A DNA stretch of 36,560 nucleotides, taken from the NCBI GenBank assembly GCA_902762955.1, contig CACWQH010000031.1, forward strand, positions 1-36,560, read 5' to 3'. This DNA comes from an uncultured Lachnospiraceae bacterium. GTDB taxonomy: Bacteria; Bacillota; Clostridia; Lachnospirales; Lachnospiraceae. Of this stretch, positions 143 through 25,942 are shown piece by piece. Made by a program: the position numbers and the translations under genes. Below the pieces are notes generated by a model. It ran no database searches. It saw only the letters and a program-made list of their open reading frames with translations, and had not been told where the DNA came from. Position 1 is the first letter of the stretch; each line of letters begins with the position of its first letter.

Positions 143-476
143 GTGGGTATCCGAACTGCTGCTTATATATTACTTCACGCAGTTTAAAATTTAAAAGGCG
201 GAAAGTATATGAAAAGGCGGATACAACAACATTTTGTCCGATTTGCGTTAAATCAAAAGCGAGAATTCAAAATAGGTGCGTTAAAAAAATCGAACTGTTT
301 GAGCGTAGCGAGTTTTCGATTTTTAGCACCTATAAAGAATTCGAGTGCTTTGATTTAGCAAATTGATGACAAGTTGTGTATCAGCCTTTTCATATATTTT
401 TCGCTTTAGAAAAACTAAAAAAGTGTGAAGTCGTATATAAGCAGTGGTACGGATACCCACTATTATGCGACAAACC
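143..476 (+). repeat. giant hairpin element, copy 1 (hairpin 143-460 plus terminal repeat 461-476)
   Basis: Positions 143-460 form one imperfect inverted repeat of 318 bp. The left arm opens GTGGGTATCCG and the right arm closes CGGATACCCAC, and pairing runs in blocks to a terminal core TTTGAGCGTAGCGAGTTT (298-315). Inner blocks match the hairpins at 11850-12157 and 12195-12501. The outer arms differ in sequence but remain self-complementary. The terminal repeat TATTATGCGACAAACC follows and ends five bases from the purB stop codon. No convincing coding capacity or ribosome binding site is seen; the short ORFs here are by-products of the palindrome. Together with the short hairpins this accounts for the gene-free stretch 1-481. 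Confidence 0.85.
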
Positions 477-5881: not shown

Positions 5882-5959
5882 ATTATTCCCTCCCATTTTT
5901 ATATGATTTAATTTTATTAAATATATATATAATTGTATAATTCTTTTTCGATATAATTC

Positions 5960-5980
5960 GTTATAGGAAAAAGCTATAAC
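5960..5980. repeat. small inverted repeat upstream of the amidotransferase-like gene
   Basis: A perfect GTTATAG / CTATAAC inverted repeat with a 7-base spacer lies about 80 bp upstream of the start at 5881. It could be an operator or a leader hairpin. No clear promoter was seen beside it. Confidence 0.35.
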
Positions 5981-5989
5981 AAATTTACA

Positions 5990-6118
5990 ACTGTTTTCAC
6001 TGATATACCCTTCTAAAATCGAAAACAAAAAATGCGCACGCATGGCACGTGATACTTAACGCCATGTTTAGCGCATTTTTTTATGTTATCAAATTATACG
6101 TATATCAGTGAAAACAGT
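5990..6118 (+). repeat. covarying hairpin element, family M, copy M1 (possible terminator)
   Basis: The outer arms ACTGTTTTCACTGATATA (5990-6007) and their exact complement (6101-6118) enclose an inner stem AAAAAATGCGC/GCGCATTTTTT. The core is CGCATGGCACG, then CTTAACGCCATGTTTAGC. The same core with altered but compensating stem bases recurs at 22946-23065 and 24776-24864. The element begins 11 bases past the stop of the surface-protein gene at 6130, and the minus-strand transcript would end in a T-rich run after the inner stem, so a terminator role is plausible. Confidence 0.75.
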
Positions 6119-6129
6119 CACAATATATA

Positions 6130-7923
6130 CTAATTTATCTTATATATATAAGTCGGCTGTGCCTCGTAAGAAGCTGCATTGTAATACTGACGTCCCTTTG
6201 ATTCTACAAAGAGTGGATCCCAATATCTTCCGTTTGCATATACCCAGCCATGGAGATTACTGCTGTAAAGATAAACGTCTCCGAAATTAAGCTCTGCATA
6301 AAGGTAAGCAAGTGCTGCTGCTTCACCTACACATTCTGCTCCCTGTGCATCCTGGTCACCATATGCATTGATTATATTATTGGCATAATGTGCATCAGGA
6401 CATGCATACTTATTTACAAAGTTACCAAATGGATAATCCTTAAGGAGATATGGCCATTTTGCAACCCACTGATAACATTTTTCCTGCTTAACCGCAAGAC
6501 TGTCATCAGGACTGGTTATGGATTCAACTATTGCTCTTGCATGCATCATCACAGGTATCTTTTCTCTTGCATACTGATCCAAAACTGCCGAACCATCGGA
6601 ATTTAAAGTAACACCGCAAGCAGTACCGCCATTTTGCATAACTCCTGTAGTTCTGTCATAGAAGTAATATCTTCCATCTCTTAAAACCCATCCGTAATAC
6701 TTGGTTGTCTCAAAATTATTTACATAGTTTGTTGCGCCTAAAATAACCGACTTTCCATTTACGGTTCCATATACATGGGTTATAAATTTACCTGAATTCA
6801 AATGTCTGCTTCCGTCAACCGTTACCGACCATGAACCATCTTTATTTTTAGTTCCCTGATACCATACCACATCATCCTGTCCGTTTTCATCGCTCCAGGT
6901 AGGGAATTTTACATCGGTGATAGTACCTGCTGCGGTTGGATTGACGATTGTTATTTTATACAAACCATTACCCTGATTGACTGCACTTATAATGTTACTT
7001 CCCTTAAAGTTCTTATCTGTTCCTGTTGCATCTCTGCCTTCTTTGATTCCGTTCTTTGCATAATGGTTATAGTACATAGGTAAATTTGCGCCAAATGCCT
7101 TAAATAAATCGTCATATCTGTTGGCATATGCATATACATTAAATGAACCGTTGCCTGTTCTTTTTTCATATATTCCGGTGTTTACAAAATGATTAAAGGC
7201 TGCCTGCTGGTCATTGCCAAATGCTTTTCTTAAATCACTATAAGTTTCAAGATAGATAACAGGATCAAAACCTGCCGAGTAATCTATACCATTATTTACA
7301 AGACTGATATAAGTAAATCTTAAGCTCCTGTTTCTGACATCATTTCCGTCAAAAGGTGCTGCATTTCTTTTTTCTCTTTTTCCGTTTGTGGCATAGTGCT
7401 TATAATACTTACTTAAGTCGCTGCCAAATACCTTCTGAAGATCCGGATATCTGTTAGCATAAGCGTATACATTAAAACCATCTATACCTCTACGTCCTTC
7501 CTTCATACCATTATTTAAGAAATGATTAAATGCCAGCTGCTGGTTATCGCCAAACGCAGCCCTAAGATCTGCATATGTATCAAGATAATAAAACGGATCA
7601 AAAACCGCTTGATAATCCACTCCGTTGTAAACCCTGCTTATATATACAAATGTAAGCTTGGAATTACGTATGTCATCGCCCGGATAAGGCTTGGCATTTC
7701 TATGCTCCTTTATTCCGTTTGTCTGATAGTGACGCTCATACGCCGCCAGATCTCCGCCGTATGCCTTCTGCAAATCTTCGTATCTGTTAGCATAAGCATA
7801 TACATTAAAATCGCTGTCTGCTTCTTCGGCATGAGCAACATTTGAACCAAATATCATGGTCAATAAAACTGCTGCCACGCATAATAATGCCAATATTGAA
7901 TATCTTATTCTACTCTTTGACAT
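6130..7923 (-). CDS. secreted repeat protein with GBS Bsp-like and transglutaminase-like domains
   Basis: The 597-residue product has a signal peptide (SILALLCVAAVLL, cleavage likely after VAHA). Five alternating repeats of about 40 residues follow, of the types FNVYAYANRYxDLQKAF and FDPxxYLxTYxDLRxAFG, each ending in NGxxExR-like sequence. Next come a GBS Bsp-like beta domain (around 300-400), a short YYFYDRTTGV cell-wall-binding-like segment, and a C-terminal papain/transglutaminase-like domain. A candidate catalytic triad is Cys531 (GAECVGEA), His558 (NLHGWV) and Asp569 (RYWDPL). It probably acts at the cell surface on peptide or cell-wall substrates; protease, peptidoglycan enzyme or cross-linker cannot be told apart. 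The ATG at 7923 follows AAAGGAG; a start seven codons earlier is less likely. Confidence 0.8.
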   Translation of the reverse strand: MSKSRIRYSILALLCVAAVLLTMIFGSNVAHAEEADSDFNVYAYANRYEDLQKAYGGDLAAYERHYQTNGIKEHRNAKPYPGDDIRNSKLTFVYISRVYNGVDYQAVFDPFYYLDTYADLRAAFGDNQQLAFNHFLNNGMKEGRRGIDGFNVYAYANRYPDLQKVFGSDLSKYYKHYATNGKREKRNAAPFDGNDVRNRSLRFTYISLVNNGIDYSAGFDPVIYLETYSDLRKAFGNDQQAAFNHFVNTGIYEKRTGNGSFNVYAYANRYDDLFKAFGANLPMYYNHYAKNGIKEGRDATGTDKNFKGSNIISAVNQGNGLYKITIVNPTAAGTITDVKFPTWSDENGQDDVVWYQGTKNKDGSWSVTVDGSRHLNSGKFITHVYGTVNGKSVILGATNYVNNFETTKYYGWVLRDGRYYFYDRTTGVMQNGGTACGVTLNSDGSAVLDQYAREKIPVMMHARAIVESITSPDDSLAVKQEKCYQWVAKWPYLLKDYPFGNFVNKYACPDAHYANNIINAYGDQDAQGAECVGEAAALAYLYAELNFGDVYLYSSNLHGWVYANGRYWDPLFVESKGRQYYNAASYEAQPTYIYKIN

Positions 7924-11826: not shown

Positions 11827-11849
11827 TCAACATAGGTTTCTCGCATAAT

Positions 11850-12157
11850 GTGGGTACATTAACAACACTTGAATGAATCTTCACACTTACATTCATGTAG
11901 GAACATATATAAAAGGGCTGATACACAACTATCCAACAATTTGTGAAATCAATAAGCTCAAATCCTTTATAGGTGCTAAAAATCGAAAACTCGCTACGCT
12001 CAAACAGTTCGATTTTTTTAACGCACCTATTTCGGATTCTCGCTTTTGATTTTACACAAATCGGGATAACTGTTGTTGTATCAGCCCTTTTATATATGTT
12101 CCTAAACTTTACTTTATCGATTGTGAAGATTCATTCAAGTATTATTTATGTACCCAC
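11850..12157 (-). repeat. giant hairpin A of the composite palindrome
   Basis: The arms open GTGGGTAC and close GTACCCAC. Long paired blocks include ACTTGAATGAATCTTCACA and GGAACATATATAAAAGGGCT with their complements. The core loop (11987-12004) is in the opposite orientation to copy 1 and hairpin B. The sequence of the inner arms is nearly identical to copy 1 (143-460). Confidence 0.85.
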
Positions 12158-12193
12158 AGCTTGAAACCGCGCTACATAGCGCGGTTTTAAGCT
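12158..12193. repeat. short central hairpin of the composite palindrome
   Basis: AGCTTGAAACCGCGC and GCGCGGTTTTAAGCT flank a six-base loop TACATA. It is the symmetry axis of the 686-bp element and is related to 109-142. Confidence 0.85.
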
Positions 12194-12194
12194 A

Positions 12195-12501
12195 CAGGTA
12201 TGAAAACTCCTGATACATGTAATGCTTCAATAAATTTAGGATGACATATAAAGAAATCAGGTGGTATTTAAAACATTTGACCCGATTTGTGATAAATCAG
12301 CAACGAGTACTTAAATTGATTTTGCATGTTTAAAACCAATATGTTTGAGCGAAGCGAGTTTATTGGTTTTGTGCAAAATCAAAAAAGTACGAGTGCTCTG
12401 ATTTCACAAATTGCTGGTTAGTTTTAAATACTACCTGATTTTCTTTTATGTCATATGATAAAATTAAATTACATTACATGTATCAGGAGTTTTTATGCCT
12501 G
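12195..12501 (+). repeat. giant hairpin B of the composite palindrome
   Basis: The outer arms (CAGGTATGAAAACTCCTGAT with near-complement at 12480-12501) share no obvious sequence with those of hairpin A but pair with each other. Further pairs include the ATCAGGTGGTATTTAAAAC block and the GATTTTGC...AAAACCAATA stem below the core TTTGAGCGAAGCGAGTTT (12344-12361). Confidence 0.85.
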
Positions 12502-12524
12502 TTATTATGCGAGGAACCTATGTT

Positions 12525-14162
12525 TTATGCCTTGTTTTGTTCAGCGACAAGATGCTCGCTGTTATATATCTGTCTTAATTTCGGTTTTTCAATCTTACCG
12601 GTTGGGTTACGAGGAATGTCCGCAAATATAATCTTTCTCGGACGCTTATATCTCGGAAGTTCCTTACAGAATTCATTTATCTCATCCTCGGTTACGCTTC
12701 TTCCCGGTTTAAGCTCGATAATGGCTGCGGAGATTTCTCCGAGTCTCTTATCAGCAATACCGATAACCGCAACGTCCTTTATATCATTGTGCTTGCTTAA
12801 GAAGTTCTCTATCTGTACAGGGTAGATATTTTCTCCACCGCTTATGATAACATCCTTCTTTCTGTCAACAAGGAAGATAAATCCATCTTCATCATACATA
12901 GCCATATCACCGGTGTAAAGCCAGCCTTCATCGTCAAGTACCTCGGCAGTCGCCTTCTCATCCTTGTAGTAGCACTTCATGACACCGGGACCCTTAACTG
13001 CAAGCTCGCCTACATCGCCCTTTGGAACTTCATTTCTGTTTTCATCTACAATCTTAACCTCCCAGCCATAGCCCGGAACACCGATTGCTCCCACCTTATG
13101 GGTATTTTCAACTCCAAGATGTACACAACCCGGTCCAATAGATTCACTAAGACCGTAGTTTGTATCATAATCATGGTGTGGGAAGATTTCCTTCCATTTC
13201 TTAATCAAGCTCTGTGGTACAGGCTGTGCACCTATGTGCATAAGTCTCCACTGGTCAAGCTTATAATCCTCTATCTTAAGCTCGCCCTTTTCAAGAGCAA
13301 GAAGTATATCCTGTGCCCAAGGCACCAAAAGCCAGACTATGGTACAGCCTTCATTTGAAATCGTATCAAATATAGTCTTAGGTGTAACACCCTTAAGAAG
13401 TACAGCCTTGCTTCCTGAGATAAGACTTCCGAACCAATGCATCTTAGCTCCGGTATGATAAAGCGGAGGTATGCAAAGGAACACATCATCATGAGTCTGT
13501 CCATGATGCTTCTGCTCAACCGTTGCCGAATGCATAAGTGATCGATGCGCATGAAGTATAGCCTTTGGAAAACCTGTTGTACCAGATGAGAAATATATCG
13601 CTGCATCGTCATCATCTGTAAGCTTTATATCAGGACTCTTGCTTGAACAGTTAGCAGCAAGGGTTGTATAGTCCTCCGCAAAGGTAGGGCAGTTCTCACC
13701 TACATAGAATAACAATCTGTTCTTTTCTATCTCATCAGCTATCTCTTCTATACGACCTATAAATTCAGGTCCGAATACGAGAATGTCTACATCTGCAAGA
13801 TTAAGACAATATTTTATCTCCTCAGAATCATATCTGAAATTAAGTGGTACAGCAAGTGCGCCGGTTTTTAAAATTCCGAAATATATCGGTAGCCACTCGA
13901 GGCAGTTCATAAGAAGAATTCCAACCTTATCTCCCTTCTTTATACCTCTCGATAAAAGAAGATTTGCAAATCTGTTTGCCTTCTCATTAAATACATGCCA
14001 GGTTATCTCACGTCTATAATGGCAAAATGGATTGGCTTCGATAAGCTCATAATCTCTCCATGTTATTCTTCTTTTTTCCTGTATATCAGGATTAATCTCA
14101 ACAAGACATACCTCGTCGGCATAGTCTCTTGCGTTTCTCTCTAAGTATTCTGTAATCGGCAC
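12525..14162 (-). CDS. AMP-forming acyl-CoA ligase (probable aryl/acyl acid substrate)
   Basis: This 545-residue ANL-superfamily enzyme activates a carboxylic acid with ATP and CoA. Motifs: phosphate-binding IYFSSGTTGFPK (189-200), the AMP-site block YGLSESIGPG, YTGDMAMYDEDGFIFLVDRKKD, the ISGGENIYP hinge region, and catalytic-lysine motif NPTGKIEKPK near the C-terminus. Residues 30-60 contain a doubled RRITW/RREITW segment, perhaps a small internal duplication. It starts with GTG at 14162 behind GGAGGG, 19 bp after iorB. Co-transcription with indolepyruvate oxidoreductase suggests arylacetates (indole-, phenyl- or hydroxyphenylacetate) as substrates, as described for aryl-acid salvage in methanogens. 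Direction and substrate are inference; fatty-acid ligation is the alternative. Confidence 0.85.
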   Translation of the reverse strand: MPITEYLERNARDYADEVCLVEINPDIQEKRRITWRDYELIEANPFCHYRREITWHVFNEKANRFANLLLSRGIKKGDKVGILLMNCLEWLPIYFGILKTGALAVPLNFRYDSEEIKYCLNLADVDILVFGPEFIGRIEEIADEIEKNRLLFYVGENCPTFAEDYTTLAANCSSKSPDIKLTDDDDAAIYFSSGTTGFPKAILHAHRSLMHSATVEQKHHGQTHDDVFLCIPPLYHTGAKMHWFGSLISGSKAVLLKGVTPKTIFDTISNEGCTIVWLLVPWAQDILLALEKGELKIEDYKLDQWRLMHIGAQPVPQSLIKKWKEIFPHHDYDTNYGLSESIGPGCVHLGVENTHKVGAIGVPGYGWEVKIVDENRNEVPKGDVGELAVKGPGVMKCYYKDEKATAEVLDDEGWLYTGDMAMYDEDGFIFLVDRKKDVIISGGENIYPVQIENFLSKHNDIKDVAVIGIADKRLGEISAAIIELKPGRSVTEDEINEFCKELPRYKRPRKIIFADIPRNPTGKIEKPKLRQIYNSEHLVAEQNKA

Positions 14163-25598: not shown

Positions 25599-25942
25599 GG
25601 TGTAAGTCAGATGAGTGGTTGCGGCTGCATATATGCAGGTGAGGAAAGTCCGGGCTTCATAGGGCAGGATGCCGGATAACGTCCGGTGGAGGTAACTCCC
25701 AGGCCAGTGCAACAGAAATAAACCGCCGATTTAATCGGTAAGGGTGGAAAGGCGAGGTAAGAGCTCACCGCTGGACCGGTAACGGAACAGGCTCTGTAAA
25801 CCCCATCCGAAGCAAGGTCAAACATAAGACTATACGGCTGCCCGTCGTGTCTTTAGGTAGACCGCTTGAGCCTTATGGCAACATAAGGTCTAGATAGATA
25901 ATCACTCTCGACATAACCCGGCTTATAGTCTGGCTTACACTT
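25599..25942 (+). ncRNA. rnpB: RNase P RNA
   Basis: The catalytic RNA of RNase P, which trims tRNA 5' leaders. The universally conserved 5' segment GAGGAAAGTCCGGGC is present near 25642-25656. The 3' conserved part AGATAGATAATCACTC followed by ACATAACCCGGCTTATA is near 25892-25928. The ends GTGTAAGTCAGA and TCTGGCTTACAC pair as helix P1, fixing the boundaries. A TGGAAAGGCGAGGTAAGAGCTCACCGC-type P8/P9 region and a GAAAGG element are also seen. Length is about 344 nt, normal for bacteria. The 3' end abuts the stop codon of the convergent gene at 25946. Likely promoter sequence lies at about 25558-25588 (TTAACT, 17 bases, TATGCT), of modest quality. The opposite-strand ORF inside is not a gene. 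Confidence 0.97.

Follow-up and report, generated by a model that had tools for sequence, protein, structure and literature searches.

A family of large non-coding palindromic repeats at gene ends in Lachnospiraceae, capped by candidate DNA mini-hairpins

The window, the whole stretch of 36,560 nucleotides analysed here, comes from an uncultured Lachnospiraceae bacterium and begins at base 1 of contig C31 of its 2.65-Mb draft assembly (81 contigs). A composite palindrome sits there between two genes of the - strand, abutting the stop codon of an upstream ligase gene. The named relatives of this ligase (best 80 of 595) are Lachnospiraceae-labelled MAGs, many of them from rumen or gut. The composite and a second copy of the same family in the window consist of the following features.

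11829..11849, + strand: left terminal inverted repeat, 21 nt, consensus near AAACTTCGGTTTCTCGCAT, read by eye
11850..12157, - strand (tip strand): hairpin A, 308 bp, by folding
11917-12075, - strand: core of hairpin A, covariance model R1, 159.6 bits, the copy itself being part of the model
11987..12004, - strand: tip of A, TTTGAGCGTAGCGAGTTT, GTA loop closed by GC pairs
12158..12193, no strand: central GC-rich hairpin, AGCTTGAAACCGCGC..GCGCGGTTTTAAGCT, from the whole-composite fold
12194..12502, + strand (tip strand): hairpin B, 309 bp, by folding
12271-12433, + strand: core of hairpin B, covariance model R1, 149.4 bits, the copy itself being part of the model
12344..12361, + strand: tip of B, TTTGAGCGAAGCGAGTTT, GAA loop closed by GC pairs
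12504..12524, - strand: right terminal inverted repeat, adjoining the stop codon of the ligase gene (12525..14162, - strand)
143..460, + strand: second family copy, an A-type hairpin near the contig edge, tip at 298-315
227-385, + strand: core of the second copy, covariance model R1, 164.3 bits, the copy itself being part of the model

The composite palindrome is real and far beyond chance. The whole stretch folds with a minimum free energy of -335 kcal/mol on the + strand (z -32.0) and of -324 kcal/mol on the - strand (z -24.2), and shuffles never fold as low (0/20 on +, 0/20 on -). The sequence-only reading of this DNA, made before any search, had described two large hairpins in opposite orientation with a small hairpin between them, and this architecture holds: the tips of A and B lie on opposite strands, and the arms of the central hairpin are recovered by an inverted-repeat pair search at 12151-12174 and 12177-12200. 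It had also described terminal inverted repeats of 16 bases; the repeats are there, with a length of 21 nt and 95% complementarity (11829-11849 with 12504-12524). The conserved tip that it pointed out, TTTGAGCGWAGCGAGTTT, occurs three times in the window, always exactly (298-315 +, 11987-12004 - and 12344-12361 +), in a search that allowed up to three mismatches and for which 0.00 occurrences are expected from 100 shuffles. As each of the two hairpins is 'sense' on a different strand, the idea of one RNA cloverleaf of 686 nt finds no support. What had been called copy 1 is the A-type hairpin at 143-460; as it has a central hairpin beside it and the window starts at the first base of the contig, it is probably half a composite truncated by the contig end. 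We likewise find no credible coding capacity within the element, and no Rfam family reaches its threshold there, the E-value search returning only matches far below threshold. Both results agree with that first reading, which had credited no open reading frame and matched no named RNA. Elsewhere in the window, RNase P RNA class A is recognised at 25603-25941 on the + strand (312 bits).

Homologues, which the same reading had proposed to look for, are abundant. BLAST of the element against the host genome yields 71 matching pieces, and the tip is found with up to two mismatches at 44 places, a search for which the mirror symmetry of the pattern makes the built-in control void. For the core alignment 42 copies were chosen by their tip (up to four mismatches) and five were dropped as cut by a contig end or containing N. 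The covariance model of the roughly 150-bp core is thus built from 37 copies picked by tip, and because of this selection the conservation of the tip in the alignment is partly by choice; loci L026, L037 and L039, which have no such tip, never entered it. In the host genome the model has 50 matches. Of the 37 genus genomes searched it hits 12, among which nine carry 10-50 copies (hairpin-rich genomes below) and three carry 1-3, and the other 25 have none. At family level 24 of 299 genomes (298 genera, host included) match the core, mostly weakly and some in the tip region only. Seven of the family-level matches were folded. Six form giant hairpins that share the kind of tip but have different stems; for the seventh, L154, the folded stretch missed the match at the contig edge. 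The exact tip pattern is present in 16 of 398 genomes of the phylum, host included, and by a short blastn match the tip region is found at 10 places in pILYOP01, a megaplasmid of Ilyobacter polytropus (Fusobacteria). One of these places (L281 3001-3040), when folded, is a long interrupted hairpin. Carriage by plasmids or phages was considered and rejected: the distant blastn matches of the element are short, the best being the tip region in pILYOP01, phage matches have E values of 0.2-0.7, and two exact patterns searched in viral contigs gave 0 matches. Our search of the literature on palindromic repeats, REPs, Lachnospiraceae and stable chromosomal hairpins found no description of the family, and the tip strings led to unrelated papers only. 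Apparently this is a family of large non-coding self-pairing DNA repeats without an existing name.

A unit measures 206-362 bp (30 single-tip units), with the conserved core inside it. In the core alignment 22 of 41 pairs change on both sides, so that the covariation for which the sequence-only reading had suggested a check is present. Paired cells amount to 97.6%, compared with 86.4% after shuffling and 30-48% after sliding the partner, and cells changed on both sides number 215, compared with 69 and 9-22, respectively; these counts are not a probability, as the structure is derived from the same alignment and the copies are related. With related copies and an alignment chosen by tip, covariation and tip counts are not independent events either. 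One helix, formed by columns 25-31 and 134-140, hardly varies at all: 6 of its 7 pairs are constant, a pattern that resembles sequence recognition. Read by eye, the alignment also shows GA pairs that face each other in the core (CGA/GAG) and a pair of small bulges that are conserved. Counting large hairpins of other kinds by nesting depth proved too unspecific for use.

Which strand folds was assessed for 78 of 91 model matches (13 were dropped as cut, N-holding or antisense duplicates), 77 of them unique. The predicted minimum free energy per copy is -54.8 on the tip strand and -45.8 on the other strand as RNA, and -31.7 and -29.5 as DNA. GU pairs number 254 on the tip strand and 105 on the other (61 vs 6 copies of 77). 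Since the other strand folds worse and has fewer GU pairs, predicted pairing favours the tip strand, whether as RNA or as DNA. The excess of GU wobbles on the tip strand is also compatible with RNA, and together with the covariation of the core stems it speaks for a structured RNA at transcript ends, in which copies would be kept as bidirectional terminators or exonuclease blocks in mRNA 3' regions. We regard this RNA reading as rather unlikely, for reasons that begin with the tip.

Three-base loops flanked by GAGC and GCGAG number 67, of which 62 are GNA (44 GAA and 18 GTA; the other five are AAA), and all six four-base loops are GNNA (2 GTTA, 2 GATA, 1 GTAA, 1 GAAA); the tip regular expression fails to match in four of the 77 copies. 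Among the 47 places listed outside the host, 35 of 38 three-base loops are GNA and 7 of 9 four-base loops are GNNA, counts in which the first loop base is fixed by the search pattern. A GNA or GNNA loop with at least two GC pairs is the rule given for extraordinarily stable mini-hairpin DNA, and a Tm of 78 °C is quoted for GCGAAGC by the group that described the motif (PMC4686876). Judged by their letters, the conserved tips of our family fit this published rule. RNA of the same mini-hairpin sequence is far less stable than DNA, and RNA tetraloops prefer GNRA. Four of the six four-base tip loops are not GNRA, which argues against the RNA reading, as does the lack of an Rfam family.

Paired tips have a single polarity. 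In all fetched sequence, the 16 distinct pairs of tips less than 700 bp apart have the left tip on the - strand and the right tip on the + strand without exception (16/16). Four pairs come from other genera, and the pairs are not all independent, as L171/L172/L175, L004/L204 and L234/L254 are orthologous sites. Paired tips on opposite strands are a further point against an RNA at transcript ends. On the strength of the GNA/GNNA rule and of these opposite strands we favour action as DNA, to which both observations point without proving it.

The 12 composites of the genus in the pair list share a common central hairpin like AGCTTRAAAC..GTTTYAAGCT, the inner bases of which change yet stay complementary. 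Base pairs enclosing both hairpins exist in all 12 composites examined, where some of the outer pairs counted extend into the flanks; the sequence of the terminal repeats differs from one composite to another. The 47 tips of the host belong to 42 elements, five with two tips and 37 with one. Single-tip units L282, L285 and L286 adjoin a central hairpin, and units of this kind are perhaps half-composites. Searched with up to three mismatches, the terminal repeat of the window is matched five times in the host: the window and C2 each hold a pair spaced by less than 800 bp, and the fifth match is at a contig edge. For a known transposon end, a match that the sequence-only reading had named as a possible refutation, the analysis covered this host search and the blastn of plasmids and phages. 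Enclosing pairs in every composite and an element without credible coding capacity could suggest a relic MITE of a DDE transposon, with the ~20-bp terminal repeats as transposon ends and the giant hairpins as passive cargo. This origin is very unlikely in our view, given that 37 of the 42 host elements, some perhaps half-composites, have one tip, that no constant target duplication is seen by eye in the composite flanks listed, that no partner element carrying the window repeat is found in the draft host genome, and that the tip recurs in distant genera on different stems.

The location of the family was read from the calls of a simple codon-usage gene caller. None of the 47 tips lies inside a called gene. 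The 35 elements with both neighbours called occupy 16 convergent, 14 tandem and 5 divergent gaps (classes read by hand; 7 of 42 elements were dropped for want of a called neighbour on one side), and convergent gaps are strongly enriched, with 16 of 35 for the elements and 11 of 206 for other gaps at the same loci (p 6e-9). In tandem gaps 13 of 14 elements are closer to the 3' end of the upstream gene. REPs are likewise placed near gene 3' ends (PMC3733652). Residence at 3' ends supports the reading as RNA, against which stand two observations. The tip strand does not follow the strand of the upstream gene, with which it agrees in 4 of 12 single tandem cases and disagrees in the other 8, as read by hand, and the stems are not followed by a T-tract, with a mean of 4.3 T vs 3.9 A per 12 nt (p 0.29; 30 single-tip units, both strands). 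By this T-tract test the family is not an intrinsic terminator, nor is it a known Rfam RNA. A bias of the tip strand to the G-rich strand is not significant (22 vs 15), and a lagging-strand orientation bias was rejected on the same split (p 0.32).

Placement between convergent genes and tips of the DNA type would also suit a DNA cruciform useful to the host, where extrusion of the tip would absorb supercoiling or bind nucleoid protein or gyrase at gene ends, a role of the type argued for E. coli REPs (PMC3733652). We consider such a role distinctly unlikely. The element seems dispensable, as 25 of 37 genus genomes have no core match, a count in which hairpins with other stems would be missed. 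Two results at orthologous sites bear on it from either side: some large hairpin often persists at a site while its sequence changes, and an ordinary short hairpin can take the place of a family hairpin.

These sites show how the content turns over. The window site carries the same composite in G012 (95%), a composite with the inside inverted in G030, where the terminal repeats differ and still pair, and an unrelated array of short repeats in G001. The array at this G001 site (L202, about 1490-1960) is made of short inverted repeats TTTAGTCCGTA..TACGGACTA, and the same array follows the same ligase in a goat-rumen MAG (L053, end). At the C61 site G029 has kept the outer terminal repeat with the composite inverted, the latter having 86% identity to the window composite, so that inversion is seen at two orthologous sites. 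In G030 the C5 site spans only about 75 bp, a short stretch that by eye can fold into a small hairpin; G001 carries a divergent composite of its own there, and in G012 a different nested palindrome is present. None of the orthologous sites compared gave a clean empty site with exact junctions. Nine host sites are comparable in the fetched 853 kb of G012. Six have kept the hairpin, one with a decayed tip and one with an extra large hairpin alongside, and three have something else: another palindrome, another hairpin, and an ordinary short terminator-like hairpin. This last replacement, within a 96-bp stretch at the C15 site, speaks for the RNA reading. An EFAR-type split of one terminator at C15 was rejected, the stem of the relative's terminator differing from the outer stem of the element.

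Base changes at these sites qualify the covariation. The window and G012, compared over a folded stretch that includes flanks, differ by 25 single-sided changes at paired positions, 13 of which break the pair. In five orthologue pairs of 93-96% identity the changes at paired positions are nearly all single-sided, with one both-sided change in total, and about half or more of the changes break the pair; paired bases in true orthologues are not clearly protected. Three comparisons at 79-85% identity gave 17, 6 and 19 both-sided changes that keep the pair and 4, 0 and 7 that break it. This is in line with replacement of stretches, slow compensation also being possible. Since both-sided changes appear, apart from that single case, only in the comparisons at 79-85%, covariation across copies is not to be taken for slow compensatory evolution alone.

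The sequence-only reading had left the choice between a structured RNA, a non-autonomous mobile element and a DNA cruciform site. Dispersed copies, patchy presence within the genus and changes of content and orientation at orthologous sites lead us to favour a mobile or exchanging palindromic repeat. We propose with moderate confidence that the composite is a copy of a dispersed, non-coding, giant palindromic repeat of the REPIN or EFAR type, which is probably recognised as a DNA hairpin. The unit would be a hairpin with the ~150-bp core and a GNA/GNNA mini-hairpin cap that forms on one strand only, and the composite would be two such units back to back, with the small GC-rich hairpin between them and the ~20-bp terminal inverted repeats outside. 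When the region becomes single-stranded (lagging strand, repair) or extrudes as a cruciform, the stable tip may nucleate folding of its own strand. A trans-acting enzyme may then recognise the folded hairpin pair and excise, insert or exchange it, as proposed for REPINs. Units would gather at gene 3' ends mainly because insertion is tolerated at such places, or would be aimed at existing stem-loops, and would nest within one another.

By analogy the family most resembles a REPIN in how it works, at giant size and with a DNA mini-hairpin as its tip. REPs and REPINs are described as dispersed extragenic palindromes in inverted doublets with GT pairing in their stems, thought to work as single-stranded DNA hairpins (PMC3116915, PMC3733652), and as adjoining the 3' ends of convergent or upstream genes (PMC3733652). 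Our family shares the extragenic 3'-end placing and the one polarity of close pairs, yet only 5 of 42 host elements are two-tipped. It differs in conserving a loop-proximal tip and a core, in having a central hairpin and terminal repeats, in its units of 206-362 bp compared with REP palindromes of 20-40 bp that bear a GTAG or CGTC tag, and in that the Y1 transposase is not found in seven of the nine hairpin-rich genomes. By size and transposase it is outside REP/RAYT. Closest in style would be EFAR of Enterococcus, which Venditti et al. in 2007 reportedly presented as large modular palindromes near gene ends that insert into stem-loops and retain part of the target stem. The likeness would lie in the large modular palindromes near gene ends and in nesting, seen in our family at the reverse transcriptase locus described below; the host family is different, the comparison is one of reported features, and EFAR is not known to have a GNA tip. 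EFAR has been named as a MITE (PMC3733652). The MITEs ERIC, RUP and NEMIS are similar in being non-coding, intergenic and strongly folding with terminal inverted repeats (PMC2229807, PMC3733652), a trait present in the 12 composites examined. Unlike them the family has a conserved structured core, and neither a constant target duplication in the composite flanks listed nor a parent transposon in the draft host genome is seen.

The search for a helper found no mobilising enzyme, and several candidates were rejected. A RAYT/Y1 transposase (PF01797) is present in 2 of the 9 hairpin-rich genomes and 6 of the remaining 28 (Fisher p 1.0) in a survey of 37 genus genomes, several of them incomplete drafts. 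Loss of the palindrome nuclease SbcD as a permissive condition fares no better, with SbcD above the cut-off in 2 of the 9 hairpin-rich genomes and in 11 of the remaining 28 (p 0.45). Helper genes between neighbouring hairpins are not apparent, as the genes read from translations are nusG, rplK and rplA at C39 and unrelated genes in G012:C44.

A reverse transcriptase domain is found in 7 of 9 hairpin-rich and 7 of 28 other genus genomes, with p 0.014 uncorrected for kinship. The enzymes of the seven hairpin-rich genomes have 46-86% pairwise identity, some alignments being short fragments, and the three that were scanned (G000, G001, G013) are all PADLOC RT_UG26. The RNA upstream of the host enzyme matches Rfam RT-5 (RF03026) with 64.4 bits at a threshold of 45.7. 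The host locus reads as follows.

L382 906-1005, + strand: RT-5 RNA, RF03026
L382, about 1258-2523, + strand: UG26 reverse transcriptase, PADLOC RT_UG26

By a text pattern, an RT-5-like stretch lies upstream of the enzyme in six of the seven genomes, and a nested palindrome lies between RNA and enzyme in four of seven. What the gap contains differs between genomes: G012 has nothing there, G030 an outer hairpin, G000 additional nested stems and G010 a full family core (146 bits), and G001 retains a weak remnant (16.9 bits, E 0.048); no hairpin before the enzyme is seen in G009, G012 and G013. A family hairpin therefore sits inside another hairpin at this locus. The UG26 reverse transcriptase is not known to have been characterised.

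From these data one may suppose that giant hairpins are made or spread by the UG26 reverse transcriptase with its RT-5 RNA, a proposal that we hold to be very doubtful. In this scheme the folded tip would act as primer for snap-back copying of the arm to which it belongs, and the reverse transcriptase locus, where several genomes carry nested hairpins, would serve as the source. If true, this would explain why long complementary arms that are unrelated in sequence surround one conserved tip, would account for insertion at gene 3' ends, nesting and the missing transposase, and would amount to a reverse-transcriptase counterpart of the REP/RAYT pair; a causal link would also give UG26 and the RT-5 RNA a role. 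The nesting is no proof that UG26 acts on the hairpin, because the gap at the locus is also the 3' end of an RNA and the hairpin-rich genomes are mostly close kin by ligase identity. Nor does the distribution prove it, because the enzyme is absent from hairpin-rich G025 and G029 (drafts 80-88% complete) and a UG26 enzyme is encoded in G027, where no family hairpin is found. UG26 on plasmids was rejected: 490 records match, all below 60% identity, and those listed (25 of 490) are Sinorhizobium at about 22% identity, several annotated as group II intron. Viral contigs hold two weak relatives at 25 and 32% identity. G010 also encodes an AbiA-type reverse transcriptase (L389 490-2448, E 8.6e-225).

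The repeat of REPIN or EFAR type would represent a broad family of hairpins in genomic DNA in which the conserved feature is a DNA mini-hairpin, a motif that the literature we found treats as chemistry and aptamer design. It would offer a natural system for asking whether cells recognise extruded or single-stranded DNA tips. In its carriers, certain gut and rumen bacteria, large palindromes sit at some gene ends, with turnover of their sequence and a structure that often persists.

Further giant hairpins occur in the same kind of site without the GAGC-loop-GCGAG tip (L253, L237, L334, L382), with the modules GTCGGC..GGGTATA..CTGC, GAGCGAGAGCGTGTCCTTC and TTATCACTTAACG. In L299 (about 5915-6225, G000:C30) a family hairpin is flanked by two similar palindromic terminator-like hairpins, which may be a duplicated target.
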